Source: Leptolyngbya boryana PCC 6306
GTDB taxonomy: Bacteria > Cyanobacteriota > Cyanobacteriia > Leptolyngbyales > Leptolyngbyaceae
Direction: 5' to 3'
Assembly (NCBI RefSeq): GCF_000353285.1
Contig: NZ_KB731324.1
Coordinates: forward strand, 3,676,577 to 3,740,576
Length of the DNA stretch: 64,000 bases
Shown: positions 1 through 16,872 of the stretch, in pieces
How positions within the stretch are numbered: position 1 is the stretch's first letter
Layout: the number at the start of each line of letters is the position of its first letter
Notes under the pieces: model-generated
Seen by the model: only the letters and a program-made list of their open reading frames with translations
Database searches by the model: none
What the model was told of the DNA's origin: nothing
Position numbers and translations under genes: made by a program

Positions 1-150
1 GAGCGCAATGGTGATTCATCAACCTGCATAAAATTTGAAAAGTCCCCAGAACTAGAGGCGCGATTGATTCGCTCCAAAGTTTGAGGACTAAATTATTGAA
101 TAGTTATACCTGGCAAACACCTCTGTTGCTGAGATGTAAAATCCACCACT

Positions 151-351
151 CTACTTAATCAGGTGTAGAACATCGCGCAGCACACTAAAGCCTGCTAAGT
201 CCCACGCTAAGTAAGCAAGGAATCCGATCATTGCTAATCGACCGTTCCAGAGTTCTGCTTGAGGATTGAAGCCGAAAAGAAAAGCATTGCGATCGACACC
301 ATTGTATTCTGTGGCAACAGGAGGTAAGTTAGTCGCTTTGTTCGATTGCAT
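151..351 (-). CDS. High-light-inducible protein (HLIP/Scp family), 66 aa
   Basis: Single-helix relative of plant light-harvesting proteins; family members bind chlorophyll and carotenoid in the thylakoid and protect photosystems and chlorophyll-synthesis enzymes under stress. The diagnostic chlorophyll-binding motif is visible at residues 33-44 (E33, N36, R38, then AMIGF), followed by a hydrophobic helix to about residue 55. The frame stays open upstream to 522, but the extra 57 residues resemble no HLIP. I chose the ATG at 349-351, which has an AAGAAG ribosome-binding site just upstream and gives the usual family length. It stands alone and is divergent from the RRM gene. Confidence 0.9.
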   Translation of the reverse strand: MQSNKATNLPPVATEYNGVDRNAFLFGFNPQAELWNGRLAMIGFLAYLAWDLAGFSVLRDVLHLIK

Positions 352-562
352 TGTTACACTTCTTAATGAACTTCTATTTACTAGAGTATCGGCAGAATTC
401 CCATCGAGCCTATACCTTTGGGGGTATCTCTGAGTGTTACAGAGAGAAGTTACAGCACAATACGTAGATTTGAGTGCTAAATTATCCGCTTTATCCTTTG
501 CAATCTTAGAAAATGCTTTCAACCTTAGAGCGTGTTGTCAGTAGATAAAAAACTCTCATTGC

Positions 563-601
563 TTCTATTAAGCTACACATCGGATTGTTTCTATTAAGCT
601 A
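563..601. repeat. Direct repeat, 13-mer twice with a 26-bp period
   Basis: TTCTATTAAGCTA occurs at 563-575 and again at 589-601. The pair lies about 130 bp upstream of the RRM gene and on the far side of the divergent HLIP gene. A 26-bp period fits a tandem operator for one of these genes, but the binding protein is unknown. Confidence 0.6.
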
Positions 602-733
602 TACAGTCGTTGAACTTTTAGAAGCTGTGTTAGGCTGAAGGCTGAAGCGATATTTTCGGCTGTGTAATTCCTTATCATTAAGTGTTGCTCCGAACCTAAA
701 TCTCTCTACATTATGATTCTGGAGCCGTTTTTT

Positions 734-1036
734 ATGTCAATCTACGTTGGCAATCTTTCTTACGAAGTGATGCAGGACAACCTCAGCGAAATTTTTGCTG
801 AATATGGAACCGTTAAGCGAGTTCAGTTACCAACCGACCGGGAGACTGGACGAGTTCGGGGCTTCGCGTTTGTCGAAATGGCAACCGACACTGAGGAAGA
901 AGCCGCGATCGAAGCTCTCAACGGAGCCGAGTGGATGGGGCGCGATTTGACCGTCAACAAGGCAAAACCTCGTGAAGAGAGAAGTTCTTCTAGTGGAAGT
1001 TGGGGCGATCGCAGAGGCGGCTCTTCTCGCCGCTAG
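734..1036 (+). CDS. RNA-binding protein with one RRM domain (cyanobacterial Rbp type)
   Basis: A 100-residue protein with one RNA-recognition motif over residues 1-78 and a short Ser/Gly/Arg-rich tail (83-100). Both RNA-contact motifs are intact: RNP2 IYVGNL at 3-8 and RNP1 RGFAFVEM at 42-49. Cyanobacterial Rbp proteins of this build are cold-inducible, and some help bring photosystem mRNAs to the thylakoid. I chose the ATG at 734 because MSIYVGNL is the family start; an earlier ATG at 713 would add seven atypical residues. The tail is shorter than in the glycine-rich cold-induced members. Confidence 0.92.
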   Translation: MSIYVGNLSYEVMQDNLSEIFAEYGTVKRVQLPTDRETGRVRGFAFVEMATDTEEEAAIEALNGAEWMGRDLTVNKAKPREERSSSSGSWGDRRGGSSRR

Positions 1037-1218
1037 ATTCTGATCGAGCAGGGAGCAAGTACAACTCTACCGTCTTAAAGGCAGCTCTTACAGAGTCTGC
1101 CTTATTGTCGATCTCTGAAAACATGATTCATGGCTGGATTGAAAATGGTGCAAGCGTTTCAACTCACCTATTTTTTCATGCAGCGATACAGCATTCCTTA
1201 ACTAAACCCAAGAAACAA

Positions 1219-1581
1219 ATGAATACGAAAGAACTTCTGAGCCGATACAATGCATGACAACGGGACTTTCGGAATCTGAACTTAATTGCCGTAAATTTCA
1301 GAAGTTTAAATTTCACAGGCATCAATCTAAGCGGTGCAAACTTAACCAAGGCAAATCTGACTAAAACGAACTTAAGTTACGCCAATCTCAAAGGCGCAAT
1401 TTTAGTTGGAGCAATGTTAAGCGAAGCAAACTTCACAGGTGCAAATCTGACTGAGGCAAATTTAAGCAATACGAATTTGGGTGAAGCAATTTTGGGTCAG
1501 ACCTATCTTAAGGGTGCAATCTTGCCAGACGGAACCACTCCCAGCACCCTCTCGAACCGTCTTAAAGTGCCGCAGATCTAA
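1219..1581 (+). pseudogene. Pentapeptide-repeat protein interrupted by an in-frame TGA at codon 13
   Basis: The reading frame from ATG 1219 to TAA 1579-1581 encodes a 120-codon pentapeptide-repeat protein, but codon 13 (1255-1257) is TGA. The residue just before the conserved QRDF/QRNF is Gly in the two intact paralogs at 7836 and 8705, so a single GGA-to-TGA change explains the break. After the stop the frame continues cleanly through about fifteen A(N/D)LXX repeats and ends with an ILPDG-type tail like its paralogs. Restart at an internal Met would lose most of the solenoid. A sequencing error is possible but cannot be judged here. Confidence 0.75.
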
Positions 1582-1647
1582 CAGTCAATGCTTGAGATTG
1601 AGAAAATCATAGTTTGAGCAACGCTTCCATTATCAGAGGAAATCCCT

Positions 1648-4056
1648 GTGTTTGATAAATTTACAGAGAGAAGCATTAGGGTTGTGAATGCGGCTCAAAT
1701 CGAAGCTCGTCGCCTTGACCATAATTATGTTGGCACAGAGCAGCTTTTGCTAGGTTTAATTGCGACTCGACCCAGTATTGCTGCACAAGTGTTAGCGGAT
1801 CTAGACATTACTCTGGAAGAAGTACAAGAGCAAGTGCAGGCAGTGATTGGTCGAGGGACTGGACTGTCTCGGACTGAGATCCCCTTTACTCCCCGGAGCC
1901 GGCGTGTCTTAGAGCAGTCCTTAAAAGAAGCAGAGCGGCTCGGACATAGCCAGGTGGAACCAGAGCATTTGTTGCTGGCGATCGTGCAAGATGAGGCGGG
2001 ATTAGCCACTCAGGTTTTAGAACGGCTAGGCGTGGAGCGGGTTGAAGTTCGGATTAAAGTGCTACAAGCCATCTCTGAAGCTAAGCCCATCTTAAAAGGG
2101 AAGAGTTCCGGTCGCAAGAGCACACCGATTTTGAATGAGTGCGGCACGAATCTGACTGAACTTGCGGCATTGGGAAGGCTTGATCCGGTAGTCGGTCGTC
2201 AGCAAGAAGTAGAACGGATGATTCAGATTCTGGGTCGCCGCACGAAGAACAATCCGATTTTAATTGGTGAACCGGGTGTCGGAAAAACTGCTTTAGCCGA
2301 AGGATTAGCGCAGCGTATTGTCGATCGAGACGTGCCCGAATCGCTTCAAAATCAGCAAGTTCTCACGTTGAATATCGGAACTTTACTGGCTGGAACAAAG
2401 TATCGAGGTGAGTTTGAGGAACGGCTCAAAACCATCATGAAGGAAGTTCGCTCATCGGGAAACATCATTTTAGTCATCGATGAAGTTCATACTTTGCTAG
2501 GGGCAGGTTCTGCTCAAGGCTCACTCGATGCTGCAAATATTCTGAAACCTGCTCTCGCGCGCGGCGAACTGCGCTGTATTGGAGCAACAACGCTCGATGA
2601 ATATCGTCAATATGTTGAGCAAGATGCAGCACTAGAACGGCGATTTCAGCCCGTGATGATTAATGAGCCGAGCATTGAAGAGACGATTCTGATTTTACAA
2701 GGGTTACGCAGTCGCTATGAGCAGCACCATCGGCTAGAAATTTCGGATCTTGCCCTAGAAGCGGCGGCAAAGCTTGCCGATCGATATATTTCTGATCGGC
2801 TGCTCCCAGACAAAGCGATCGATTTGATCGATGAAGCTGGATCTCGCGCTCGAATTCTTCACGGCAAGAAATTCTCGCTCGATAAGAGCATGAGTGAACG
2901 ACTCAAACAGATTTTGCTCACCAAAGCAAGCGCGATCGCACAACAGGACTTTAAACGTGCTGGTGAAGTGAGATCGAGTGAGCTGACTCTGCAAGCAGAG
3001 GTTCAGACCGAGGCTCCAGCATTTGGTTCTGCAATCGTTGTGGATGAGGTCGATATCGCTCACATTGTCTCATCTTGGACAGGCGTTCCGGTGAACAAAG
3101 TCACCGAACTTGAGTCAGAACAGTTAATGCAGATGGAAGAAGTTTTGCATCAACGACTGATTGGACAAGAAGAAGCGGTCAGCGCGATCGCACGAGCTAC
3201 TCGTCGGGCAAGAGTGGGCTTAAGCAATCCCAATCGCCCGATCGCATCGTTTATTTTTTCAGGGCCAACGGGAGTGGGCAAAACTGAGTTAGTCAAAGCA
3301 TTAGCTGCCTGCTTTTTTGGATCTGAATCGGCGATGATTCGACTAGATATGTCTGAATTTATGGAGCGACATACCGTTTCTAAGCTGATTGGTTCTCCAC
3401 CCGGATATGTGGGCTATAGCGAAGGCGGACAGTTAACAGAAGCCGTTCGACGCAAGCCTTACACCGTTGTGCTATTTGACGAAATCGAAAAAGCACATCC
3501 CGATGTATTTAATTTGCTGCTGCAAATCTTAGAAGATGGTCGCCTAACCGATGCGAAAGGTCGGACTGTGAATTTCAAGAATACCTTGCTCGTGATGACC
3601 TCGAATGTTGGTTCCAAGGTGATTCAGAAAGGAGGCGGCGGACTCGGTTTTGAACTCTCGACGAATGCTCCAGAAGCATCTTATAACCGCACTGTTGCTT
3701 TGGTCAATGAAGAACTGAAGCAGTACTTTCGCCCAGAATTCTTGAATCGTTTAGATGACATCATTGTGTTCCGACAATTAACACATGATGAAATCAAACA
3801 AATTGCGAATCTCTTACTGAATGAATTTTCAGCTCGCTTGCTAGAACAAGGCATCACACTGGAAGTCAGCGATCGCGTTAAAGATCGCCTCGTCGAAACG
3901 GGCTATCACCCAGAGCAAGGCGCACGTCCGCTGCGACGAGCGATCACTCGTCTACTCGAAGATAGTCTAGCTGAGACGATTCTCTCTGGTCGAGTTAAGT
4001 CTGGAGATTCTGTGAAAGTCGATTTAGATGAGCATGGACAGATCGAGATCGTTTAG
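1648..4056 (+). CDS. Diverged second ClpC-type AAA+ unfoldase (Hsp100)
   Basis: Class I Clp ATPase of 802 residues that unfolds substrates and feeds them to ClpP. Order: double Clp_N domain (1-145), AAA1 with Walker A GEPGVGKT at 207-214 and Walker B VIDE at 276-279, a UVR-like middle segment around 433-450, and AAA2 with Walker A GPTGVGKT at 539-546. The LGF loop that docks ClpP is kept at 666-668, so it probably still works as a protease partner. Compared with the canonical ClpC at 58094, both ATPase cores match closely, but the N-domain and middle segment, where substrates and adaptors bind, have diverged: the second N-repeat reads EPEHLLLA instead of GTEHLLLG. Start is GTG with AGAGGA seven bases upstream. 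A specialised substrate range is inferred. Confidence 0.93.
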
Positions 4057-4065
4057 AGAATTCAG

Positions 4066-4096
4066 GCGATCAAACGAGACAGTAACGAAATCAAAC
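4066..4096 (+). promoter_or_regulatory. Putative operator: two 10-mers 21 bp apart upstream of the NACHT gene
   Basis: GCGATCAAAC at 4066-4075 and GAAATCAAAC at 4087-4096 start exactly 21 bp (two helical turns) apart, 55-85 bp before the NTPase start codon. An inverted near-copy, CTTTGATTTC, lies at 4121-4130. The same pair with the same spacing precedes the allophycocyanin-like gene at 6148-6178, so a shared regulator is likely; its identity is unknown. Confidence 0.5.
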
Positions 4097-4150
4097 GCTT
4101 ACATTTTGAGTAGAGGAATGCTTTGATTTCTAATATGAGCCTTTTATTCT

Positions 4151-6139
4151 ATGGTCAAGCGCTCACTTCAGGCATCTCCTGCTGGTATTCAACAGGCTAA
4201 ACGTGCGTTTGCTATCAAAGGCTGGACGCAGGAAAATCTGGCAGGGGAAGTGAACTTAAAGACCCGTCAACCCATCTGGCGCTTTTTCACTGGACAACCT
4301 GTCGATCGCCAAACTTTTCTAGAAATTTGTTCGATTTTGGATTTAGATTGGCGCGAGATTGCACTTGATCCGCCTGTAGATTTTCCCGTACCTGGAGAAC
4401 GAACAAAAGTAGTTCCTCTCGATGTGGATAGTTTAGTCCAGCAAGTGCGATCGCAGCATCAAGACACGATTCAAGATCAGTGCGGCATCTTACAGTTACT
4501 TGATGTCAACCGTCCGGTGAGGATTGATGATATCTATGTCGATGTCAATACTTTAGAAGAAATTGCTAGCCAACAATGGGTCGAGATCGCTGAACTACAG
4601 AACCTAAAGCCGACTGACTTCGATCGTCTGGGCTTAGGAGACATTGAGCAAAAGCTAATCCCCGGAATGCAGACAGTCAAGACTTATTCAAAGCTGAGAG
4701 TTTTGGGAAAGCCGGGAATCGGGAAAACCACTTTTTTGCAACATCTAGCGATTCAGTGCAATCGGGGAGAATTTGCTGCTAATCGAGTGCCGCTCTTTAT
4801 GGCAATGAGAGAGTTTACAAAAGAATCTAGAAACAGTGGCACTTTTAGCCTTTTTAATTATGTGTGCTCTTGCTTTGTTCCTTCTGGCATTTCAGACCCC
4901 GCCGTAATTGAAACGTTGCTACAATCAGGTCGAGTTTTGCTGTTAATGGACGGGATTGATGAACTGATGAATCAGGACAGTGCATCGGTTCTACGGGAAA
5001 TTCGCCAATTCTCAGATAAGTATCATCGCAATCAGTTTGTTGTTTCCTGTCGTACAGCGGCTCAAAAGTTTCAACTTCGAGGCTTCACCGATATTGAGAT
5101 TGCACCCTTCACCCAAACGCAAATCACAACATTCGCGCAAAAATGGTTTGCTGTATTCAGCAGAACAACACCACGAGCGCAGCAAAATCAGTCCGTTGAG
5201 TTTATGCGGAAACTAGACTTACCGGAGAACTGGCAGTTTCGCCAACTGGCTGTTACCCCTTTGTTTCTGCACCTTGCCTGCTGGGTATTTCAGGGTCAAG
5301 AAAAAATTCCAACAAAGCGGACTGAATTTTACAAGCAAGGACTCGATCTGCTGCTGGGGAAGTGGGATGAAGCCAGAGGAGTCGAACGCGATGAGGCTTA
5401 CCCAGGTTTTTTATTACCTCAAAAGCTAAGATTGCTGAGCCAATTGGCAGCAGTCACTTTTGAGCAGGGTCAGTACTTTTTTGAACAGGGCATGATTGAA
5501 CAGTACATCGGAGACTATTTACGAAACCTACCGAATACGTCATTAGAACCCGAAGAACTGCAAGTTGCAAGCGAGAAGATGCTAAAAGCGATCGAGGCAC
5601 AGCATGGACTTTTAACTGAACGAGCACGAGGCATTTTTTCATTTTCCTACTTGGCGTTTCAAGAATACTTCACGGCTCGGAAAATTGTCGCTAGCCCTAA
5701 TTTACGAGCATTAGAGCAAGCATTAGGAAACTTAGTGAGCCACATTAGCGATGCTCACTGGCGCGAAGTGTTCTTGTTAACAGCAGCAATGTTGCGAAGT
5801 GCAGATTCGCTCGTGCAGTTGATGAAACAACAAATTGATGCGCTAGTCGCAGAAGATCCCTATTTACAAAATTTTCTAATGAAGGTCAGCCAAAAATCCC
5901 AATCGAACCCAAACGAGCCGAAAATTGCAACCACTCGCGCGTTTGACCACATTCAGCATTCCTGGCAGTTTAGTCCTGAGCAACAGCAAGTCCTACAACG
6001 GTACTACGATGCCAATCAGCTCCTAATTGATTGTTTGAATAGCAACTGTGAAGTCACAGCCGCAATTCGACAAGAGATTGAAGCAACGTTGCTCTTGCCT
6101 CAGAAAGAGTCAGAGGATCGAGAATTGCAAGGAGAATGA
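4151..6139 (+). CDS. NACHT-type STAND NTPase with N-terminal HTH-like region
   Basis: A 662-residue signal-transduction NTPase. Residues 10-75 look like a helix-turn-helix fold (GWTQENLA, then a recognition-helix-like stretch), and a linker follows. The NACHT core has Walker A GKPGIGKT at 186-193 and Walker B LLLMDGIDEL at 263-272, with the extra acidic residues typical of NACHT, and then helical winged-helix-like sequence to about 590. No WD40, TPR or LRR sensor is present; the last 70 residues are helical and unassigned. Family members act as ligand-triggered switches in regulation or anti-phage defence. Here the neighbours are photosynthesis stress genes and its upstream operator is shared with the phycobiliprotein gene, so a regulatory role is my preferred inference. 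No clear Shine-Dalgarno precedes the ATG. Confidence 0.85.
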   Translation: MVKRSLQASPAGIQQAKRAFAIKGWTQENLAGEVNLKTRQPIWRFFTGQPVDRQTFLEICSILDLDWREIALDPPVDFPVPGERTKVVPLDVDSLVQQVRSQHQDTIQDQCGILQLLDVNRPVRIDDIYVDVNTLEEIASQQWVEIAELQNLKPTDFDRLGLGDIEQKLIPGMQTVKTYSKLRVLGKPGIGKTTFLQHLAIQCNRGEFAANRVPLFMAMREFTKESRNSGTFSLFNYVCSCFVPSGISDPAVIETLLQSGRVLLLMDGIDELMNQDSASVLREIRQFSDKYHRNQFVVSCRTAAQKFQLRGFTDIEIAPFTQTQITTFAQKWFAVFSRTTPRAQQNQSVEFMRKLDLPENWQFRQLAVTPLFLHLACWVFQGQEKIPTKRTEFYKQGLDLLLGKWDEARGVERDEAYPGFLLPQKLRLLSQLAAVTFEQGQYFFEQGMIEQYIGDYLRNLPNTSLEPEELQVASEKMLKAIEAQHGLLTERARGIFSFSYLAFQEYFTARKIVASPNLRALEQALGNLVSHISDAHWREVFLLTAAMLRSADSLVQLMKQQIDALVAEDPYLQNFLMKVSQKSQSNPNEPKIATTRAFDHIQHSWQFSPEQQQVLQRYYDANQLLIDCLNSNCEVTAAIRQEIEATLLLPQKESEDRELQGE

Positions 6140-6147
6140 ATTGCATC

Positions 6148-6178
6148 GAAATCAAACAATTCATACATGAAATCAAAC
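6148..6178 (+). promoter_or_regulatory. Putative operator: GAAATCAAAC twice, 21 bp apart, upstream of the allophycocyanin-like gene
   Basis: Identical 10-mers GAAATCAAAC sit at 6148-6157 and 6169-6178, 45-75 bp before the phycobiliprotein start codon. Spacing and sequence repeat the element upstream of the NACHT gene. An identical decamer pair at identical spacing is unlikely to be chance. It begins 9 bases after the NTPase stop codon. Confidence 0.55.
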
Positions 6179-6222
6179 ATCGCTCTGTCAATGTAGTTGT
6201 AAAAGATTAGGGGAATGTAATC

Positions 6223-6708
6223 ATGAGTGTAATTCAGAAATTAATCGTGAACGCAGACGCAGAGTGCCGCTATCCTACGCCAGGCGAAATGGATCAGATC
6301 AAAAGCTTTATGATGAGTAGCGATCGTCGATTGCGCTTGGTCAAAACTTTAACTGAAAGTCGCGATCGCATTGTTAAAGAAGCCACTAAACAATTGTTTC
6401 AGCGTCGTCCCAATTTAGTCTCTCCAGGCGGCAATGCCTATGGAGAGAACATGACCGCAACCTGCTTGCGGGATATGGATTACTACCTGCGCTTAATCAC
6501 ATACAGCGTTGCTGCTGGAGAAACGACTCCGCTTGAAGATATCGGACTGATTGGAGTGCGCCAGATGTACAATTCCCTTGGGACACCGCTTGAGGGAGTT
6601 GCTGAGGGTGTTCGCGCCATGAAAGCAATGACAACGTCACTCATGTCAGAAGAAGAAGCAAGTGAAGTCGGTGCTTATTTCGACTACTTAATTGCTGGGC
6701 TTCAGTAA
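6223..6708 (+). CDS. Allophycocyanin alpha-subunit paralog (orphan ApcA-like)
   Basis: A 161-residue phycobiliprotein alpha subunit. The bilin-attachment Cys81 within [15 protein letters not shown] and the NAYGE segment (71-75) are intact, so it should carry phycocyanobilin. It resembles core ApcA more than ApcD around the chromophore, although [12 protein letters not shown] (53-64) is closer to ApcD-like sequences. No apcB, linker or lyase gene is adjacent, so it must pair with a beta subunit encoded elsewhere. A good AGGGGA site lies eight bases before the ATG. Orphan apcA2-type genes are known in other cyanobacteria. It may be a substitute core subunit that changes phycobilisome energy flow under stress; that role is inferred. 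Confidence 0.9.
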
Positions 6709-6836
6709 GCTAGAGTTTCATCTTAACTTTGAATGTGGAGTGCTGTCTGCCGAAAACGAGAAATGCGGTATTGTGCATTACTTAGGAGTAGGCTGGATTA
6801 ATCGATACATTTAATCGCAGATTAGAGGAAAATGAT

Positions 6837-7136
6837 ATGTCTGATTCTTTAGCTCAAGGCATTCTTGTCACAATTATTGGTGAAGCTGTTTTGCAAGAGA
6901 GACTAATCCGTCTGTTATCAAAACTAGGAGTGTCCGGCTACACAATTATTCCAGCTCAGGGCGGAGGAAGCCATGGTAAACGGATGGGAGACATCGCAGG
7001 TTACAACACCAACATTGAACTCAAAACCATTGTCACCTTAGAAATCTCGGATCAATTGCTAGAAGATCTCAAGCAATATCAAGCAACTCATGCTCTAATT
7101 GCATTTCGACAAACCGTAGAAGGATTGTTTGATTAG
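6837..7136 (+). CDS. P-II-like regulatory protein (SbtB-type)
   Basis: A 99-residue protein of the P-II superfamily. The pattern G-x-S-GYT at 32-37, a Gly-rich loop carrying the basic residues HGKR, and NTNIELK around 56-62 follow the nucleotide-binding layout of SbtB/P-II-like trimers, which sense adenine nucleotides such as cAMP, AMP or ATP. No sbtA bicarbonate transporter or ammonium transporter is adjacent; the neighbours are an allophycocyanin alpha paralog and nblA, so its partner is likely different. It lies 128 bp after the phycobiliprotein gene and may have its own promoter. GATTAGAGGAAA provides the ribosome-binding site. P-II-superfamily membership is secure, the ligand and target are not. 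Confidence 0.75.
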   Translation: MSDSLAQGILVTIIGEAVLQERLIRLLSKLGVSGYTIIPAQGGGSHGKRMGDIAGYNTNIELKTIVTLEISDQLLEDLKQYQATHALIAFRQTVEGLFD

Positions 7137-7193
7137 ATCTATCTTTGGAGAGATTCATCTGTGATGAGCTAAGAAATTACTCACAGAATATAG

Positions 7194-7240
7194 CTCAAGC
7201 AACAATTCCAACACAAAATCAAACATCAAGCTGACATACT
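7194..7240 (+). promoter_or_regulatory. Upstream region related to the allophycocyanin-like promoter
   Basis: AAAATCAAAC at 7215-7224 is followed by ATC, three variable bases and CTG, as in the region after 6169. A weaker copy, TCAAGC followed shortly by CAATTC, starts 24 bp before it, matching TCAAAC and CAATTC upstream of the phycobiliprotein gene but with three extra bases. It precedes the fasciclin relic. Confidence 0.4.
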
Positions 7241-7293
7241 TGTGATGGTTAGCGTAATCAATATTAACGAGTACCAAATGAAAGGTGAAACTC

Positions 7294-7425
7294 GTGACCG
7301 ATATTGTTGATACTGCTGTCAAAGCTAGTGCCTTGAACACTCTAGCTGCTCTCAAGCTGCTGGTTTAATTGAGATGCTCAAAGGTAAGGGTCCATTCACC
7401 TGCACAAGTGAAGTAGCTGAGGAGT
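7294..7425 (+). pseudogene. Fasciclin (FAS1) domain protein, decayed remnant
   Basis: From GTG 7294 the sequence reads VTDIVDTAVKASALNTLAA, the classic start of a cyanobacterial FAS1 protein. A one-base deletion near 7350 shifts the frame; in the next frame the family sequence resumes as QAAGLIEMLKGKGPFT. Further small deletions follow where VFAPTDEAF should be encoded, and after about 7425 nothing recognisable remains, whereas a full domain needs about 130 residues. AAGGTG upstream is a leftover ribosome-binding site. FAS1 proteins are usually extracytoplasmic adhesion modules. The relic shows this cluster once contained another gene. Confidence 0.7.
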
Positions 7426-7618
7426 AAAACTCTAGATGCGTTCTCTAGAGACAGCTACAATATATGAGTTACTTTAATTCTCACTTTTGTCTCTACAGAA
7501 TCAGGTGGGAGTTTTCTATCAGTTTAATCACGCTAGAACCACAGCTTCATTTTGCCTAGTTTGTGATTTTCCATCAGGCTCACAATTTTTACCTTCACTA
7601 GGGTTATTAGAGGTCAGT

Positions 7619-7819
7619 ATGGATCCATCGAGCGGACTTACTCCAGAGCAGGAATTCAACCTCAGAAATTTTGCAGATCAAGCCCACTGGATGTCCCGTG
7701 AGCAGGCTCAAGAGTTTCTGATTGTACAGTATCGACTCACGTTAGTTCAGAAAACAACGATGTATCTAGGGCTTCTCAAGCAGGAATGGAAATTGGAACT
7801 CAATCCCACCAATATTTAA
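7619..7819 (+). CDS. nblA: NblA phycobilisome degradation protein
   Basis: A 66-residue NblA: helix 1 LTPEQEFNLRNFADQ (7-21), the family hallmark MSREQAQEFL (25-34), and the second helix ending LKQEWKLEL. NblA dimers bind phycobiliproteins and act as adaptor to the Clp protease (ClpC) when phycobilisomes are dismantled under nitrogen, sulfur or other starvation. The frame is open further upstream to 7487, but the added residues are not NblA-like; the ATG at 7619 after TTAGAGG gives the family length. A diverged clpC, a spare allophycocyanin alpha subunit and a P-II-like gene lie upstream, so degradation machinery and possible substrates cluster. The hallmark variant (FADQAHWMSREQ) suggests a paralog rather than the main nblA. 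Confidence 0.9.
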   Translation: MDPSSGLTPEQEFNLRNFADQAHWMSREQAQEFLIVQYRLTLVQKTTMYLGLLKQEWKLELNPTNI

Positions 7820-7835
7820 ACTCAGGAGAAACATA

Positions 7836-8390
7836 ATGAATGCTCAAGAGATTGTAGAACTCTATGCAACAGGACAACGAGATTTTAGTCACGTCAAACT
7901 GCTCCAAGTCTGCTTGACAGATGCAAAGCTGATTGGAGCAAAGCTGATTGGGGCTGAGTTAGTCAGAGCGGATCTGCGCGGGGCGGATCTTACTGAGGCT
8001 CACCTTAACCAAGCAAAACTAAATCAAGCAAATCTAGCCGATGCCGCAATGATTCAAGCTTGCTTAATCCATGCAGACCTGAGTGGGGCAGACCTGAGTG
8101 GGGCGAATTTGACTCATGCAGATTTGAGCGGCGCAGATCTCAGTGAAGCTAAACTAGGTGGGGCAAATTTGCGGAAAGCAGATTTGAGTAAGGCAGATCT
8201 AAGCGGTGCTGATTTACGAGGTGCAAATTTAACTGAAGCCAATCTGAGAGAGTCAGATTTGAGTGATGCAGACCTCAACGGCGCACATTTGAGTGAAGCG
8301 AATCTAACGGGAGCAACAATTCAAGGAGCCAATATCGACCATACAGGATTAAGTAAAACGATAATGCCCGATGGCAGCGTGCATGACTAG
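7836..8390 (+). CDS. Pentapeptide-repeat protein, 184 aa
   Basis: After a short cap (MNAQEIVELYATGQRDF) the protein is almost entirely A(D/N)LXX pentapeptides from about residue 25 to 165, which fold into a right-handed quadrilateral beta-helix. The end, IMPDGSVHD, matches the ends of the two related genes at 1219 and 8705. No enzymatic domain, signal peptide or membrane helix is present. Such proteins are very common in cyanobacteria and mostly of unknown function. It starts 16 bp after nblA, with CAGGAG upstream of the ATG, so it is probably co-transcribed with nblA. Confidence 0.88.
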   Translation: MNAQEIVELYATGQRDFSHVKLLQVCLTDAKLIGAKLIGAELVRADLRGADLTEAHLNQAKLNQANLADAAMIQACLIHADLSGADLSGANLTHADLSGADLSEAKLGGANLRKADLSKADLSGADLRGANLTEANLRESDLSDADLNGAHLSEANLTGATIQGANIDHTGLSKTIMPDGSVHD

Positions 8391-8704
8391 CTGAGAAATG
8401 ACGTATGACTCATCATGCTTGAACGCTCAAACCAAGGTTCTGCCAAATTTTTCCAAGCGATCGTGGTTGCTGTTTACGGCTGACGATCGCTTTCGACTTG
8501 TCAGAAGGAATCATGGGATCTTGATTAGAGAGAGTTGGTATAGATCACTGGCTAGGCAACAAGCGAATAGAAAGCTTAAATCAGGTTCAGTCGTAAATTG
8601 GAGCAGAAGTCATTCGATAGACTGTTCGATTAGGTAGCTATAAAAGCCATTAGGCTCTACAATAGAGATACAGCGATTGCGCTACACGTCGCGAGGCGAC
8701 CAAC
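8391..8704. other. Intergenic, 314 bp, nothing recognised
   Basis: Separates the two intact pentapeptide-repeat genes. It contains a 79-codon open frame (8398-8637) without a ribosome-binding site or protein-like character, which I do not call. A GC-rich segment just before 8705, GCGCTACACGTCGCGAGG, resembles dispersed cyanobacterial repeat fragments. Confidence 0.5.
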
Positions 8705-8992
8705 ATGAATGCTAATGAAGTCCTCAACCGATACGCAGAAGGGCAAAGAAATTTCAGAACAGAAGATTTGAAAAACTTGAACTTTGCAAACGCAAATCTA
8801 AGCGGAGTTGATTTTACTGGGGCAAATTTGACCGGATCAGACTTGAGCAGTTCAGACCTAAGCGATACCAACCTAAACTGGGCAACTTTGAAAGGAGCTA
8901 ACCTTGGCGGAGCAAACTTAAAAGGCGCAAAGCTGCCCAATGGCAGTATTTACAACGAATTTTTGGGATCTGCTAATTACTTAGGTAATTAG
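8705..8992 (+). CDS. Short pentapeptide-repeat protein, 95 aa
   Basis: Same layout as the neighbours at 1219 and 7836: cap MNANEVLNRYAEGQRNF, then about nine A(N/D)LXX repeats (residues 26-78), then KLPNGSIYNEF. It is the closest paralog of the broken gene at 1219, whose cap reads MNTKELLSRYNA before the stop. The solenoid is only about two turns long, so it probably acts as a dimer or capped module. Function unknown; the shared cap suggests that these three form one local gene family. Confidence 0.82.
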   Translation: MNANEVLNRYAEGQRNFRTEDLKNLNFANANLSGVDFTGANLTGSDLSSSDLSDTNLNWATLKGANLGGANLKGAKLPNGSIYNEFLGSANYLGN

Positions 8993-9030
8993 CTAACTGA
9001 ACGCAAAAACTTTGAATTGGAGAAAGGGAC

Positions 9031-9162
9031 ATGGCAAAAGAGAAAAAAGGCAATCGAGAAGCTAAAAAACCGAAAGCAGAGTCTCAGGGCGGTAAAAAAC
9101 AGAAAAAAGACCCGAAAAGATTTGACGGGAACACAACCGGATTACTTAGAAATTTAAAGTAG
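9031..9162 (+). CDS. Small lysine-rich basic protein, 43 aa
   Basis: Starts MAKEKKGNREAKKPKAE and ends in FDGNTTGLLRNLK; roughly a third of the residues are Lys or Arg. Very similar small proteins beginning with MAK/MSK, GN(R/K)E and KKPK occur in many bacteria without known function. A strong GGAGAAAGG ribosome-binding site precedes the ATG, and a hairpin follows the stop, both supporting a real gene. It probably follows the pentapeptide gene in one transcript (gap 38 bp). Nucleic-acid or ribosome contact is plausible from charge only. Confidence 0.65.
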   Translation: MAKEKKGNREAKKPKAESQGGKKQKKDPKRFDGNTTGLLRNLK

Positions 9163-9189
9163 AATCTGCTTCTATTTCCTGCTTTTCTA

Positions 9190-9212
9190 GTAAGCCAGAG
9201 TAACTGGCTTAC
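9190..9212. terminator. Hairpin, likely terminator after the small basic gene
   Basis: GTAAGCCAG (9190-9198) pairs perfectly with CTGGCTTAC (9204-9212) around a five-base loop. The following T-tract is weak. Confidence 0.5.
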
Positions 9213-9329
9213 TTCTAGCTTCCACTACTGATTCAACAATAAGTAGATGGAAGTTTTTTTTGTCCCAATTTACAATTCCAAGTCTAAGATTTTATTTTTG
9301 TCACGATCTCACTAGAAACCTTTTTTAAT

Positions 9330-9536
9330 ATGCCTACTTCAATCAATACTTCCCTAAGAATTCAGTCTCAAGCGAATTTTAGCTTCTGTAGTCACACTAC
9401 GTTCGATCGCAGTACAACGAGCCAGCATCTCTGTCCTTGCTGTTCGTATGTGCTGCTTCGCCATGTCAGACTAGATGGAGTGTACTGGCGATGTAGTCAT
9501 TGTCATGCAGAGATGGCTGTTTGGCGTAGTGCATAG
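9330..9536 (+). CDS. Small zinc-ribbon protein, 68 aa
   Basis: Residues 34-64 hold two knuckles, CPCC and CSHC, separated by RHVRLDGVYWRC, a pattern of a widespread cyanobacterial small-protein family that usually reads CPCC...RHIR...VYWFC..C. The four-cysteine arrangement should bind one zinc ion. The first 30 residues are Ser/Thr-rich and not conserved in the relatives I recall, so a later start is possible although no other Met is available. No partner gene is evident. Function unknown. Confidence 0.65.
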   Translation: MPTSINTSLRIQSQANFSFCSHTTFDRSTTSQHLCPCCSYVLLRHVRLDGVYWRCSHCHAEMAVWRSA

Positions 9537-9996
9537 CTGGAAATAAGCACCTTACACAGCATCCTGATTAAGGCTAGAAAAAGCTGATCAAAAGCTGGAG
9601 ACTGCTGAAGGGTTCCATGCAGCAATTTTGACAGGTGTGGGGCAACTCTTCAACGCTAGCACGCACCATTCGCATAATTTGAACCCAGATTCCATCGAAC
9701 TTCATTTGAGCAGTATTTTCCCATCTCTACAATCTGTAATCCTGTAGAGTGTATTCGCTATATTCCTGTTCTTCAATTGATTTGCAAGCAGCTAGTTAAG
9801 TCCATGGCTTAGAGGCAAGCAGTTAAGAGTCACCAACACCTTAATTAAAAATTCGGCTGTTCCTTACCTTACCTTAACCATTTTTCTACGTTATTTCCGT
9901 TATTCTCAACGTTGGTGCATTATGCGTTGACATCTTTCCTCTCAGTACTTCATTGACTGTTAATTCGTTTGTTCTTTTGAGCGGTTCTGCCAAACT
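9537..9996. other. Intergenic, 460 bp, upstream of exbB
   Basis: No supported gene. A 42-codon frame on the minus strand (9576-9705) has no recognisable product. Near the exbB side there is a CCTTACCTTACCTTAACC run at about 9862-9879 that resembles part of a Pho box but lacks the regular 11-bp period. Confidence 0.4.
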
Positions 9997-10695
9997 ATGT
10001 CTAATTTGTACGAAGTTGTAGCGAAAGGGGGACCATTGATGCTTCCCCTCGTTGGTTTATCGGTTGCCTCTTTTGCATGTGCCTTCGATCGTGCAGTATT
10101 CTGGTTTCAAGTGCTCAGAACCGAAGACCGAGTCGCACATCATATCTTAGACGCAGCACAATATAGCTTGACCGATGCTCGAATGATTGCGGAGAAAGCC
10201 AGGTCGCAACCAATTGGACGCTTCATGTTAGCGGCTCTAAAACTCAACCAGCCCAACCCAGAAACTTTCCGATTGGCACTGGAAACGGCGGGTGATGAAG
10301 AATTTGCCAAAATGCGCAGAGGCGACAAGATGTTGGAAACAGCCGTCGCGATCGCGCCCCTGCTCGGATTGCTAGGAACTGTAACAGGTCTGATGTTGAC
10401 CTTTGCCAACTTGAACGTAGGCGGCGCAACGCTCGGAGCAGAACAAACCACCAAAGCGGCAGCCGGAATCGCTGAAGCACTCACAACCACGGCTTGCGGT
10501 ATGGTCGTCGCAATCATTGCGTTGGCACTTCTAAGAGTCTCTGTCACTCTGCAATCTCAGCAGATGGAGTATTTCTCTAAAATTGGTGGCGAGTTAGAAC
10601 TGATTTATCGCCAAGTTTGGTACGAACCTTGGACAAATGAATTGGCGAAAGCAGGATCGGCTCAGTTATCTTCTGAACTCTCTGTCGGGAGCTAG
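9997..10695 (+). CDS. exbB: ExbB/TolQ-family proton channel
   Basis: A 232-residue MotA/TolQ/ExbB protein of the inner membrane. It has a first transmembrane helix around 13-31, a long cytoplasmic stretch, then two helices (about 115-138 and 160-182) with the family motif region IAPLLGLLGTVTGLM and conserved small residues that line the channel. With ExbD it converts the proton gradient into work on a TonB-type protein. exbD follows two bases after the stop, so they form an operon, and the TonB-like gene lies convergent just beyond it. Confidence 0.92.
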   Translation: MSNLYEVVAKGGPLMLPLVGLSVASFACAFDRAVFWFQVLRTEDRVAHHILDAAQYSLTDARMIAEKARSQPIGRFMLAALKLNQPNPETFRLALETAGDEEFAKMRRGDKMLETAVAIAPLLGLLGTVTGLMLTFANLNVGGATLGAEQTTKAAAGIAEALTTTACGMVVAIIALALLRVSVTLQSQQMEYFSKIGGELELIYRQVWYEPWTNELAKAGSAQLSSELSVGS

Positions 10696-10697
10696 GC

Positions 10698-11102
10698 ATG
10701 AAATTTAACAAATACCAGCAAAGCCAAATTCCAGAGGTGAATCTCGTTCCGATGATGGACGTGATTATGACGATTCTGACGTTTTTCATTCTGGTGTCGA
10801 TGACACTAACGAGTTCCAAATCTGTGGACGCAACGCTGCCTAGTACCGATAAAGGAGTCAACAATAAACCTGCTCCTGAGCCGCTGATTATTGGAATGAC
10901 ACGGGCTGGACAAACGGAAATTAACAATGCAACCGTCACAGAAACGCAGATTGCAGAACAGGTTGCAGCTTATTTTCAAAGAAATCCACAGGGCGCGATC
11001 GTGCTCAAAGCTGATAAGTCGCTTGCTTACGAAAAAGTGGTTCAAACTCTGGGAACGCTGCGAGATGTCGGAGGCGATCGCGTTTCTTTAGCGATCGAGT
11101 AG
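10698..11102 (+). CDS. exbD: ExbD/TolR-family biopolymer transport protein
   Basis: A 134-residue partner of ExbB. It has a short cytoplasmic N-terminus (PEVNLVPMMDVIMTIL), one transmembrane helix at about 18-38 containing the functional Asp in the MMDV motif, and a periplasmic C-terminal domain. Family length is normal. It is translationally close to exbB (two-base gap), and a strong hairpin terminator follows the stop. Confidence 0.92.
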   Translation: MKFNKYQQSQIPEVNLVPMMDVIMTILTFFILVSMTLTSSKSVDATLPSTDKGVNNKPAPEPLIIGMTRAGQTEINNATVTETQIAEQVAAYFQRNPQGAIVLKADKSLAYEKVVQTLGTLRDVGGDRVSLAIE

Positions 11103-11128
11103 AGAGAGCGCGCAGAATGGATAGTTTG

Positions 11129-11156
11129 ATCGGGACATTCATCATGTCCCGATTTT
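11129..11156. terminator. Bidirectional terminator between exbD and the TonB-like gene
   Basis: ATCGGGACAT (11129-11138) pairs with ATGTCCCGAT (11144-11153) around a five-base loop, followed by a T-run on the plus strand. It ends exbBD; its position at the convergent stop suggests use from both sides. Confidence 0.8.
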
Positions 11157-11158
11157 TC

Positions 11159-12241
11159 TTAGCTTTTCGGATCTTTGAGCCACGTTACAATGATCGTTCC
11201 AGTTTGATCTTTCGTGGGGATCAAATTTAAGTAGAACGTAGTACTTCCTTTCTTTAAGCGATACAACTTACCGCCGCCATACTGACCTTGCTCTGAAATC
11301 TCAAAGAAACCTGATAGTCCAGCCGCAGACATGGATTGATAGAAATTCGTCGGATTTTGACCTTGTGCTAGCTTCGGTGTTCCATCAATTCCGGGGCGCA
11401 AGTCTGGAATCGCTCCCTGCTGCAACTCTGCCTCACTCACAATGTTATAGAACATCTGCGGTTGAGCAAAGTTTTCCGGTGAAGCCGTGTTCGCAGGATT
11501 ATCTGAGCGATCGGCTTCTACTAAGAGATCCGCCAAAATTTGGTAGTACTCTTCAGGCGGACTCACTGATTCCTTCAAGGTTGCGAGATCAGTCACCTTT
11601 TGTTCAGAGAGCAAAATTACTGTTGTAGGAGCGTCAGCAAATAAGCTGAGAAACAGCGTTTGACCATTTTTAGCCGTCACGGTGTAGATCTTTGCGTTCG
11701 CGTTCTCTTCAGCTAAAGTAACAGTGAATCCTTTTGCTTTGGGTTGAGATTGATAAAAGGCTGCTACTGTGGGTAAATTTGCAGTCGCAATCCGGCAATT
11801 CTCACCTAACCCTTTGCCAAAACAATCCGGAGTAGAGGGTTGATAATGCGGGAAATCGACAAACGAGGTGGCACCACCACTGGCAGGATTTGCAACTTGA
11901 CCTTTTTCAGGAGGTGCTTCTTGCGATCGCGCCGCTTCGGGCTTGGGTGGTTCTGGTTTGATCACAACTGGATTTGCCGCAGGGCGATTGATTTTAGGCA
12001 AACTGGGTTTATTGGGATTTGCAATCTTCGCTTTATTTTGTACCTTCACTTTTGTTGTCGGAAGCTGCGTAATTTTAACGGGTGCTTCCTTATTTTCAGG
12101 CGGCTTTGGTTTTTCCTGCGGGAATGGAGCAAACAATAAGAGAGCGTGCATTCCAATTGCTGCTAAAAGCATCGGTCGGATGAAGGCACGCGCTGGAGCA
12201 GGGATCGCTGGCATAACAGGCATTGAGAGAGTTTTAGTCAT
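11159..12241 (-). CDS. TonB-like membrane-anchored periplasmic protein
   Basis: 360 residues: one N-terminal transmembrane helix (about 22-41), a Pro/Lys-rich spacer (42-115) with KPKPPENK and PEPPKPEA, then a long C-terminal region (130-360). The anchor and rigid charged spacer are what TonB uses to span the periplasm, and convergent exbB-exbD supports that role. The C-terminal half is much longer than a TonB domain, and I do not see the usual TonB motif; instead there are two similar-looking modules that each contain a FYQS stretch (FYQSQPKAKGF and FYQSMSAAGLSGF). It could be a cyanobacterial TonB variant or another ExbBD-driven envelope protein. Confidence 0.7.
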   Translation of the reverse strand: MTKTLSMPVMPAIPAPARAFIRPMLLAAIGMHALLLFAPFPQEKPKPPENKEAPVKITQLPTTKVKVQNKAKIANPNKPSLPKINRPAANPVVIKPEPPKPEAARSQEAPPEKGQVANPASGGATSFVDFPHYQPSTPDCFGKGLGENCRIATANLPTVAAFYQSQPKAKGFTVTLAEENANAKIYTVTAKNGQTLFLSLFADAPTTVILLSEQKVTDLATLKESVSPPEEYYQILADLLVEADRSDNPANTASPENFAQPQMFYNIVSEAELQQGAIPDLRPGIDGTPKLAQGQNPTNFYQSMSAAGLSGFFEISEQGQYGGGKLYRLKKGSTTFYLNLIPTKDQTGTIIVTWLKDPKS

Positions 12242-12314
12242 GGGATTCAGTCAGATTGAACGTCAACACAAGAAATCGATTGAGAAGAAATCGATCGAGA
12301 AAAAGTTACAGTGA

Positions 12315-12640
12315 GGAAGGCTCCAGCTATTTTGCAATTCCTCAATGTGGCTTGAAATTTCTAGCCGTCTACATAAACCTGAACTCTTACATGCCGAGCT
12401 AAAAAGCTCCAGAACATTTCAGTTGTGATCACTTAAATATTTCTTGAATTTCAGAATGTTGTCATCATTTTCATCGTTTGTGAATACAGATGAGCATTTC
12501 TGTTTTCTGGAATACAGGGAGGTAGGCTACACCTTATCTGTACCAATATACATCTCAAGGTGGATTTGTAGCGATAACTTTACTGAGACATTTAGTACAT
12601 CGCATGTGTAAAGAATCTATTTCACTAGCATTCCAATTTG
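12315..12640. other. Intergenic upstream of the Pho box, AT-rich
   Basis: The left part of the 458-bp gap (12315-12772, exclusive of the Pho box) between the TonB-like gene start at 12241 and pstS. It should contain the promoter of the minus-strand TonB-like gene. No coding potential or repeat was seen. Confidence 0.4.
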
Positions 12641-12641
12641 G

Positions 12642-12669
12642 TTAACCTAAGATTTAACCAAATTTAACC
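12642..12669 (+). promoter_or_regulatory. Pho box (PhoB-type response regulator site) upstream of pstS
   Basis: TTAACC occurs three times at 12642-12647, 12654-12659 and 12664-12669, a 10-12 bp period that fits the direct-repeat Pho box of cyanobacteria (consensus CTTAACCT repeats) bound by SphR/PhoB. A fourth degenerate copy (CACTTAAC) lies near 12693. It is about 105 bp before the pstS start and implies induction in phosphate limitation. Confidence 0.75.
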
Positions 12670-12772
12670 AATTATTATTTTTTCGTTTGTCTTCACTTAA
12701 CTACTAGAGTTGTAGGGTGTTCAGTGTTACCTAAATTGATGCACCACAGTCTTTGCTCAAGGACACAACACA

Positions 12773-13810
12773 ATGGCACTCTCGACAGCTTTTCGCCGCG
12801 CTGCTACTGCGTCTGTAGTAACCATTGCGCTCACGCTTACTCCAGTTTTGACCGCGATCGCCGAAGCCGTCACACTCAATGGAGCTGGCGCAACTTTCCC
12901 GGCACTCCTGTATGAACGGTATATTTCCGAATTTAAGAAGAAGAATCCTGGCGCGACGGTGAACTATCAAGCAATCGGAAGCGGCGGTGGGATTCGCCAA
13001 ACTATCGCAGGCGTTGTAGACTTCGGCGGTAGTGATGCGGCGATGACCGATGACGATATGAAGAAGGTCGATCGCGGCGTGATTTTAGTCCCAACGGCAG
13101 GTGGTTCTGTCGTGCCCATCTTCAATCTTCCTGGGGTTTCTAACCTCAAACTTGGTCGCGAAGTGCTACCGGACATTTTTTCAGGTCGGATCACCCGTTG
13201 GAATGACCCAAGAATTGCGAAAGATAATCCGGGTGTGAATCTACCTAACTCCGACATTAAGACCGTTGTTCGTGCCGATGGGAGTGGGACAACGTTTGTG
13301 TTTGTAAACCACCTCAGTGCAGTCAATCCGTACTTCAGAGGGCGTGTAGGCGTGGGAACAGCCCCCAAATGGACGACAAATCCGTTGAAAGGGCGGGGCA
13401 ATGCAGGGGTTGCCTCTACTGTTCAGAAAACGTCGGGATCGATTGGCTATGTTGAGCAATCTTATGCTGAGAAAAATAAGCTGAACGTTGCTCAGGTGCA
13501 AACGAAGCGGGGGGAATGGCTGTCTCCGTCACTAGCAGAGACCAACAAAGCCATTGCATCCTTGAAACTCCCGGATAATTTTCGGGTGTTTGATGGAGAT
13601 CCAGACGCAGGATATCCGATTACAGGGCTGACCTGGATGATGATCTATCGCCGCTATGACAACCCTGAAAAAGCAGCAGCCGTGAAAAAGTGGGTTGAAT
13701 GGGTTCTTACAGAAGGTCAAGAACTCAATGATGATCTGAATTTTGCTCGAATTGCACCGAGTGATGTGCAACGGATTTTGCAAGTAGTCAGAAACGAAGT
13801 CAAGCCCTAG
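12773..13810 (+). CDS. pstS: Phosphate ABC transporter substrate-binding protein PstS
   Basis: A 345-residue periplasmic phosphate-binding protein. A signal peptide covers about residues 1-32 (hydrophobic core ATASVVTIALTL, cleavage near AEA). The mature part starts LNGAGATFPALLY, and the phosphate-contact segments are present: GSGGGIRQ, FGGSDAAM and RADGSGTT. Length is normal. It opens a pstS-porin-pstC-pstA-pstB cluster and is preceded by a Pho box, so high expression under phosphate starvation is expected. Confidence 0.95.
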   Translation: MALSTAFRRAATASVVTIALTLTPVLTAIAEAVTLNGAGATFPALLYERYISEFKKKNPGATVNYQAIGSGGGIRQTIAGVVDFGGSDAAMTDDDMKKVDRGVILVPTAGGSVVPIFNLPGVSNLKLGREVLPDIFSGRITRWNDPRIAKDNPGVNLPNSDIKTVVRADGSGTTFVFVNHLSAVNPYFRGRVGVGTAPKWTTNPLKGRGNAGVASTVQKTSGSIGYVEQSYAEKNKLNVAQVQTKRGEWLSPSLAETNKAIASLKLPDNFRVFDGDPDAGYPITGLTWMMIYRRYDNPEKAAAVKKWVEWVLTEGQELNDDLNFARIAPSDVQRILQVVRNEVKP

Positions 13811-13999
13811 TTTCTAAAAATTCCTCCTCACACTTTTACATTGTTTCTTCACGCCTTGTGAGCTGACACGATCGAAGTTGAGCGATCGAGATAAAGGAAC
13901 CGTGCCGTTAGAGTTGCTTTTCATTTTCGATGCTGAATTTCGAGTCGCGTCGGCTCTTTCTTCAATTTTCATTCATTCTTGCGATGTGAGGACTATCAA

Positions 14000-15808: not shown

Positions 15809-15818
15809 ATCTACCCTT

Positions 15819-15849
15819 GGGGTACTTCAGATCTGTGAGTACCCCTTTT
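15819..15849 (+). terminator. Hairpin between the porin gene and pstC
   Basis: GGGGTACT (15819-15826) pairs with AGTACCCC (15838-15845), followed by TTTT. It may end most transcripts after the porin and so keep pstCAB levels below those of pstS and porin. Confidence 0.6.
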
Positions 15850-16852: not shown

Positions 16853-16872
16853 TCTTTTATTGATTTTGATCA

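Follow-up and report, generated by a model that had tools for sequence, protein, structure and literature searches.

The window analysed here is a stretch of 64,000 nucleotides (3676577-3740576 of contig C1, in a cyanobacterial genome of 7.26 Mb), and near its left end lies an island of genes that encodes, among others, a PII-like protein, a ClpC unfoldase, an NblA, and an orphan ApcA. Judging from sequence comparison, we think it probable, with a good deal of room for doubt, that this island is the local form of a mobile, re-assorting photoprotection and repair island in which remodelling of the phycobilisome is one arm. The gene for the PII-like protein recurs in many cyanobacterial groups, in the changing and often co-oriented company of light-stress genes. 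The NblA, ApcA, and ClpC, which are the three members placed in trees, are paralogues that stand apart from the canonical copies, and in some strains the set is carried on plasmids. An initial annotation of the window had proposed a phycobilisome-editing module with parts of its own. Because the cluster recurs, its parts are set apart from the canonical ones, and its ClpC has diverged in the N-domain and middle domain, the idea of a stress island with dedicated parts stands, but that of an island centred on ClpC, NblA, and ApcA does not. Below, the relatives compared carry G labels and the stretches compared carry L labels, and "the genus" is that of the window (eight genomes).

The PII-like gene served as the anchor for collecting stretches. 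It was matched in 25 of 115 relatives (at E 0.001), with 28 matches in total: 17 have 57-100% identity over most of their length, one is a decayed piece (in G007), and the rest lie at 24-41%. The gene is present on five plasmids. The named loci that we kept were 80 of the 118 encoding a relative, and neighbours were clustered for 92 loci plus the window (93 in all; L098, L103, and L124 have no called PII gene). The recurrent neighbours were a response regulator (32 loci), pentapeptide-repeat (26), RRM (25), FtsH (20), fasciclin (19), Psb34-like or ssl1498 (19), NblA (16), OCP (12), NACHT (11, the window counted), ApcA (10), zinc-ribbon (10), rhodanese (10), SPFH-like (9), and ClpC (8) families. 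In a stricter search, the 61 PII-anchored stretches of at least 15 kb, which include the window and two islands of the same genus, held a mean of 2.97 of 23 recurrent families, compared with 0.125 in 24 control stretches; the former mean is partly circular, since the families were chosen for recurring, the references came partly from the same loci, and the window and the two genus islands were counted. At least three families were found in 25 of the 61 and at least five in 15 (window included). Of the controls, 20 were stretches at round positions in five relatives, two flanked the G003 island, and two came from elsewhere in the window.

A fairer test considered only the seven families named in the initial annotation and only loci outside the genus (86 anchored stretches against the same 24 controls). 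At least one family was present in 45/86 anchored stretches and 1/24 controls (Fisher p 7e-6), and at least two in 13/86 and 0/24 (p 0.03). A search for the gene set in other cyanobacteria was one of the checks suggested in the initial annotation, and the combination does recur. Much of the signal comes from the RRM and pentapeptide families (21 and 18 of the 86 stretches), followed by NblA (12), ApcA (5), NACHT (5), and ClpC (4, two of which are only 45-48% identical and are probably ClpB by sequence); an HLIP of the window type occurred in 0/86.

Order as well as content recurs. Among same-strand neighbours no more than 1 kb apart in the 93 stretches, FtsH is followed by PII in 15 loci, PII by fasciclin in 11 (among them G007, where PII is decayed), NblA by HLIP in eight, and NblA by rhodanese in four; RRM, pentapeptide, and ClpC follow one another in seven, and NACHT precedes ApcA in five, every one of them in the genus. 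The fullest annotated copy spans approximately 25 kb (157.5-182.7 kb) of plasmid pB of Chroococcidiopsis sp. CCNUC1. It reads radical SAM, desaturase, pentapeptide, RNA-binding protein, PII-like, ApcA, pentapeptide, OCP, and response regulator, and then FtsH4 (its RefSeq name), 2Fe-2S protein, rhodanese, HLIP, NblA, desaturase, radical SAM, fasciclin, and NACHT; an IS630 transposase lies within the island and an IS701 transposase next to it. Gloeothece plasmid pP742403 carries PII-like, OCP, ssl1498 (Psb34) family, desaturase, pentapeptide, and fasciclin genes; other such smaller plasmid versions occur in Kovacikia and, with no PII match, on Aulosira plasmid5. Separately, the Kovacikia island holds an NdhI gene (332 bits; L122:12108-12704), and on a Picosynechococcus plasmid a cytochrome b6f iron-sulfur subunit (L039:17947-18480) is encoded approximately 6 kb from PII; electron-transport parts may also travel with the set.

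Within the genus, five of eight genomes carry the island (G000, G003, G005, G006, and G007), G006 with no PII match and G007 with a decayed one. A receiver protein and a fasciclin adjoin PII in G003, G005, and G007 and are absent from the window. The DNA that forms the right flank of the window's island is located elsewhere in all four other carriers (in G003, 4.07 Mb vs 5.90 Mb), and the same holds for left-flank DNA in three of them; on that side, the island of G005 runs to a contig end. The island has no single fixed chromosomal site in the genus. The base composition of the window is ordinary. Recent transfer within the genus was considered; synonymous divergence (dS) is 0.5-1.2 for island genes, which equals or exceeds that of canonical ClpC and ApcA (0.45-0.65) and is lower than that of a third ClpC (1.3-1.6).

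The same mobility could belong to a loose pile-up, a plasmid-style cargo hot spot that gathers adaptive genes without any joint work. Gene content differs strongly between loci, many PII loci are bare, transposases lie inside and beside the CCNUC1 pB copy, and NACHT and pentapeptide genes are common cargo. We nevertheless consider a pile-up unlikely: small fixed orders (FtsH-PII, NblA-HLIP or NblA-rhodanese, and RRM-pentapeptide-ClpC) are kept in distant groups, the majority of the named partners work in harvesting light or maintaining photosystems, and the island copies are apart from the canonical ones in trees.

In the window, the island and its remnants comprise the following.

151..351, minus strand: HLIP-type one-helix chlorophyll-binding protein, ATG start (PF00504, 23.6 bits, cut-off 22.3)
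734..1036, plus strand: RRM RNA-binding protein (PF00076, 75.6 bits; NF058537, 116.5 bits, cut-off 100)
about 1219..1581, plus strand: small pentapeptide-repeat gene with an in-frame TGA (from the sequence; PF00805 on the downstream open reading frame)
1648..4056, plus strand: island-type ClpC, GTG start (PF02861, PF00004, PF07724, PF10431)
4151..6139, plus strand: NACHT/STAND NTPase with an NCH2 C-terminal domain (PF05729, 74.5 bits; PF22727, 78.5 bits)
6223..6708, plus strand: orphan island-type ApcA, chromophore cysteine kept (NF058521, 300 bits, cut-off 270)
6837..7136, plus strand: PII-like protein, the island anchor (PF00543, 47.6 bits, cut-off 25)
7619..7819, plus strand: island-type NblA of 66 residues, ATG at 7619 (PF04485, 58.7 bits, cut-off 25)
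7836..8390, plus strand: pentapeptide-repeat protein, Alr5209 family (NF052603, 175 bits, cut-off 125)
8398..8637, plus strand: open reading frame with a remnant of an SRPBCC-type gene at 8441-8617 (tblastn, 59% to residues 107-165 of L041_4)
8705..8992, plus strand: small pentapeptide-repeat protein (PF00805, 69.8 bits)
9330..9536, plus strand: short CxxC zinc-ribbon-like protein (its cluster is in 10/93 loci, the window counted)

The HLIP, RRM, diverged ClpC, NACHT, ApcA, PII-like, and NblA genes were all found, by open reading frames and profile matches, where the initial annotation had put them. Its three pentapeptide genes were located too, but the first is broken by the TGA in the window, while its frame is uninterrupted in G003. 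Only the HLIP lies on the minus strand, and it keeps its position in the islands of G003, G005, G006, and G007. The Alr5209-family protein is 86-90% identical to its island counterparts in G005 and G007, the zinc-ribbon-like protein has 72-75% identity in the G005, G006, and G007 islands, and the SRPBCC-type gene that matches the remnant is present in the G005 island. More of the set lies upstream of the window: a radical SAM protein, which shares 72% identity with one from another island (L040), as well as a Carot_N (HCP-like) protein, a fasciclin, and a carotenoid-isomerase-like enzyme. No RNA family reached its gathering score in window 1-20000, and promoter and terminator scans of window 1-10000 did no better than on shuffled sequence. 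Directly to the right of the island (window 9997-16852) are ExbB/ExbD-like genes followed by PstS-like, porin, and PstC-like permease genes, named by eye; the first 3.8 kb of this segment is located elsewhere in the other carriers of the same genus.

The island ClpC is one of three ClpC-type genes in the genome, the canonical one being at window 58094-60562, approximately 54 kb away, and the third at 5848670 of the contig; by contrast, cyanobacteria are said to have one ClpC in the consulted portion of a review (PMC7966870). The divergence that the initial annotation had noticed is uneven. Compared with the canonical protein of the same genome, identity is 48% in the N-domain and 36% in the middle domain, but 76% in D1 and 79% in D2, and so the changes are not in the ATPase domains. 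The N-domain and middle domain are the usual adaptor-contact regions of ClpC. In the alignment, both AAA modules with their Walker motifs, the Clp_N repeats, and the LGF loop for ClpP docking are kept. Alignment gave 140 group-specific changes for ClpC and 24 for ApcA. In the tree, the five genus copies form one branch (98), which is joined by pieces from G004, where the gene is broken, and from Leptolyngbya PCC 7375, where it is partial, and the G048 copy is sister to the genus branch (100); 17 rows were labelled canonical, and one of them (L136, from G048) fell beside the island branch. Across 388 genomes, N-domain identity was 86-91% for the other four carriers within the genus, 58% for G048, 54% for G180, and at most 51% for the remaining matches listed. 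The ratio of nonsynonymous to synonymous divergence (dN/dS) is approximately 0.06 for the island ClpC vs 0.01 for the canonical one, meaning that the former is less constrained.

Split ClpC genes in G015, G016, and G048 (L225, L226, and L227) were considered as broken island copies and rejected. They are canonical ClpC whose frame changes near residue 206 or 261, in two of three cases at an A-run; in these draft assemblies the changes are probably assembly errors, and the genes were left out of the island count. Genomes G010, G012, G022, and G026 have a ClpC type with an open frame of approximately 880-900 residues that is 59-74% identical to the window ClpC in its two halves.

The NblA of the window scores 16.6 bits against the NCBIfam NblA equivalog (cut-off 100), and is consequently taken as a member of the family and not filed as a classical NblA. 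It is alignable to 1ojh, and an adaptor role is predicted from sequence. In the NblA tree, 18 of 19 island rows are separated from 30 canonical rows by a branch with support 100/99; the sole exception, L064, is a canonical NblA that lies approximately 6 kb from PII on the opposite strand. As a control, 20 second NblA loci were chosen outside the PII stretches, of which 18 were usable (L243 and L244 gave no row), and the control tree kept 12 of the 30 canonical rows together with L064. Twelve of the 18 control rows form another branch, four of these lying beside phycobiliprotein genes of another kind. The other six fall on the island side: four are beside rhodanese, HLIP, or radical SAM genes with no PII, and one is alone on a 5.8 kb contig. 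Five of the six share a 93/94 branch with 15 of the 18 island rows (L056, L059, and L084 being outside it), and L233 sits, unsupported, at the base of that branch, with no island gene in 16 kb. Of the genes tested by dN/dS, NblA is the least constrained (0.15-0.27). Other kinds of NblA were also encountered. L320 and L326 hold a third kind (starting QLPLEQQFEL or QLSLEQQFEL), with OCP close by in Nodosilinea PCC 7104 and a rhodanese close by in Leptolyngbya PCC 7375. Eleven Nostoc plasmid records (H8-H18) have an NblA 59-64% identical to the island type, and in the one of these that was examined, L328, it lies beside katG, in an annotation with no island gene.

Upstream of nblA, an HLR1 scan found 5/15 regions at 14/16 or better (one being the canonical L064) vs 12/426 for other genes. 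A wider scan found the element in 9/30 rows nearest the island-type query, which include second NblA copies of other kinds, vs 6/44 nearest the canonical query. An element fitting GTTATANTRRTTTACATA was found in 4/344 loci, each time upstream of an island-type nblA. The HLR1-like element upstream of some island nblA genes hints at light control. Regulation of the RpaB type was considered and dropped: the cluster labelled RpaB mixes full RpaB-like proteins with single-domain response regulators, and the genus islands have a receiver-only protein.

The window-type ApcA (83-100% identity) occurs in seven of 58 relatives, and the next matches are at 68% and below. A single branch (99/97-98) separates the 12 island rows from the 18 canonical ones, and the seven window-type rows form one group (98/93). 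These trees exclude the 71-residue fragment of L042 and the second ApcA-like match of L079, and the ApcA of L101 counts as island in one tree and falls in neither group in the other. The island gene lies outside an apcEABC operon, as no other phycobilisome gene was recognised among the open reading frames of window 1-16000. Elsewhere in the genome there is a canonical apcA, followed by a second phycobiliprotein gene that is 35% identical. The island ApcA (dN/dS 0.05-0.09) is as constrained as the canonical one. An orphan ApcA in Westiellopsis (L101:11116-11595), which adjoins PII and RRM genes, branches near canonical ApcA. It may be of the type of all0450 of Anabaena, a gene that we take to lie outside the classical apc operon. 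In the part of the source available, all0450 of Anabaena PCC 7120 is listed as apcA with its own locus tag (PMC4788461). This possible Nostocales relative branches nearer canonical ApcA than the window type does.

Several observations weigh against the reading of the window as one form of a shared, mobile photoprotection island. Beyond the partial circularity of the 2.97 mean, 28 of 89 PII-anchored stretches have none of the families and 20 only one, and for at least three of the seven named families the fairer test was not significant (5/86 vs 0/24, p 0.28). RRM followed by PII is as frequent a pair as FtsH-PII (15 loci), yet all of its loci are among L092-L119, mostly Nostocales. In the ApcA tree, the copy from the Chroococcidiopsis plasmid is placed adjacent to the canonical side (87/75), and so a common origin of all island ApcAs is not implied. 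The window copy lacks FtsH, a full OCP, and a Psb34-like gene. Finally, the HLR1-like element is absent from the window's genus, and for this reason we make no use of it for the window.

Narrower than a re-assorting photoprotection island is the possibility that ClpC and NblA of the island are a matched pair that would remove the ordinary core subunit, with the island ApcA taking its place and the PII-like protein gating the exchange. The trio lies within 6.2 kb and occurs together in five of eight genus genomes. The divergence of ClpC is in its N-domain and middle domain while D1 and D2 are conserved, the island ApcA is constrained like its canonical counterpart, and the genomes with this ClpC type (five of the genus, G048, G180, and, partially, G388) have an island-side NblA as well, that of G180 being intermediate and outside the tree. 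The distribution of the genes makes us doubtful. In 12 of the 18 stretches with an island-side NblA there is no such ClpC (stretches reach at most approximately 10 kb on each side). The island-like ClpC of G048 and G180 adjoins RRM and pentapeptide genes, not NblA or ApcA, and in G048, G180, and PCC 7375 the NblA of island type (near it in G180) is elsewhere in the genome. Five of the eight ClpC carriers belong to one genus, so that the co-occurrence was seen few times independently. The NblA of G180 shares 61% identity with the island query and 58% with the canonical query, and the NblA frame of G007 ends approximately nine residues early. Among the genomes examined, the trio is together only in the five genus genomes, while the commonest partners of PII are FtsH, RRM, and fasciclin; as a general module, the trio proposed in the initial annotation therefore did not hold up. 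Given the RRM and pentapeptide neighbours of ClpC and the NblA stretches that lack it, any fixed module of ClpC, NblA, and ApcA would at best have been assembled locally. The broader set of neighbours (FtsH, HLIP, Psb34-like, OCP, desaturase, and NdhI) points to photoprotection and repair, not phycobilisome swapping alone.

The PII-like protein matches TTHA0516 (E 8e-18) and SbtB (E 4e-8) in profile searches. Its AlphaFold2 model, built from 28 sequences, has a mean predicted local distance difference test (pLDDT) score of 82.8, with approximately 57-62 over residues 41-60, and by fold the predicted model matches 2cz4 (E 4e-10), SbtB with ATP (E 6e-9), and CPII (E 2e-8). Since both profile and predicted fold match adenine-nucleotide sensors, the protein is likely a nucleotide sensor, in line with the P-II-like sensor of the initial annotation. 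It differs from SbtB and CPII in that the window protein has no cysteine and its partners are FtsH, RRM, and fasciclin; no bicarbonate transporter was recognised among the recurrent neighbour families of the 93 loci. With dN/dS of 0.03-0.07 for PII (two comparisons) and 0.09-0.12 for NACHT, all island genes tested are under purifying selection. The reading as a defence island was rejected, as NACHT scores too low against defence family models (EruA, 24 bits against a cut-off of 1000; PADLOC PDC-S60, 31 bits over part of the model only).

PII proteins recall nitrogen control, and NblA is best known, in the accessible text of PMC7966870, from nutrient-starvation bleaching, which would make the set a second NblA system for nitrogen or sulfur lack. 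We regard this as quite improbable. The NtcA-like motif GTAN8TAC was found within 350 bp upstream in only 1/30 rows nearest the island-type NblA query vs 9/44 nearest the canonical one, TTHA0516, SbtB, and CPII are the closest matches of the PII-like protein, and the neighbours are light-stress genes.

A far-red light photoacclimation (FaRLiP) or low-light cluster is less probable again, to the point that we give it hardly any weight. Such clusters, like the island, bring an alternative phycobilisome subunit and regulators, and the paralogous ApcA has a parallel in apcA2 of FaRLiP clusters, at least in the portion of PMC4390838 available. The island differs in holding protection, repair, and proteolysis genes, and no photosystem core, rfp, apcB, apcD, or apcE gene was seen in the CCNUC1 pB annotation (PLSDB gene tables are incomplete) or recognised by eye among the open reading frames of the window's first 16 kb. 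On this incomplete plasmid annotation and by-eye reading, the apcA2/B2/D2/E2/D3, photosystem paralogue, and rfpABC genes of a FaRLiP cluster were not found, and the assignment was rejected. Moreover, in Kovacikia, which we take to be a FaRLiP strain, the plasmid island ApcA is 83% identical to that of the window and is apart from three chromosomal phycobiliprotein genes, which are at 37-42%.

If the window does carry one form of a travelling photoprotection and repair set, that set would, under strong light or oxidative stress, supply a second and tunable stock of parts for maintaining the antenna and the photosystems. Subunits of the phycobilisome would be passed by NblA to a Clp unfoldase, which in the window may be the island ClpC; in the text seen of PMC7966870, NblA is a ClpC adaptor that delivers phycobilisome proteins. 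The orphan ApcA could refill core positions as a variant subunit, OCP or HCP would quench the core, and HLIP, FtsH, and the Psb34-like protein would guard and clear photosystem II intermediates. The PII-like protein would report the adenine-nucleotide state and gate one step of the island's action, with FtsH as its first candidate target because FtsH is its frequent neighbour, and the RRM protein may control messenger stability. Within such a kit, OCP and HCP would quench, HLIP and the Psb34-like protein would shield, FtsH and NblA (the latter with a Clp unfoldase) would clear, ApcA and the desaturase would refit, and the PII-like, receiver, and RRM proteins would regulate. In algae, proteins with fasciclin domains are able to bind carotenoids, according to the accessible part of PMC10147662, and by analogy carotenoid binding is a possible role of the island fasciclin. 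A more specific scheme is speculative, and we would not bet on it: the kit might strip the normal allophycocyanin core through the rewired ClpC and its own NblA and insert the ApcA variant, with the PII-like switch sensing adenine nucleotides. The outcome would be reversible core editing, not bulk bleaching, with changed coupling to the photosystems or to OCP quenching.

Parts of this picture are familiar. The island shares with phycobilisome degradation by NblA and ClpC an adaptor of the NblA family and a ClpC (class I HSP100) in which Walker motifs and the LGF loop are present, but here both are paralogues apart from the chromosomal copies, and their genes neighbour light-stress genes and one for a phycobilisome subunit. 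When light changes, Hlips are under the control of FtsH4, in the part of PMC11287208 available. The island resembles this Synechocystis system in placing FtsH (FtsH4 by its RefSeq name in the Chroococcidiopsis plasmid) and HLIP together, and differs in that the island and plasmid copies are joined with a PII-like gene. In mostly open literature, and with searches only partly aimed at the island, we found no account of a plasmid-travelling island of OCP, HLIP, FtsH, NblA, orphan ApcA, and PII-like sensor. The travelling combination and the island-type ClpC, NblA, and ApcA appear to be undescribed, while the parts themselves are known and light-acclimation gene clusters are already a known kind.

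For cyanobacteria, the island would help explain why some strains have several nblA genes. One island OCP has 8pyh as its nearest PDB entry, and OCP2 and OCPx paralogues are sporadically distributed, as far as the available text of PMC10172135 goes; should the island OCPs turn out to be of either kind, the island would help account for that distribution. It also provides a case in which the re-tuning of a Clp unfoldase for a single adaptor can be tested, and ready photoprotection parts for strain engineering. For the cells that carry it, the island may be a means to rebuild the light antenna under stress.

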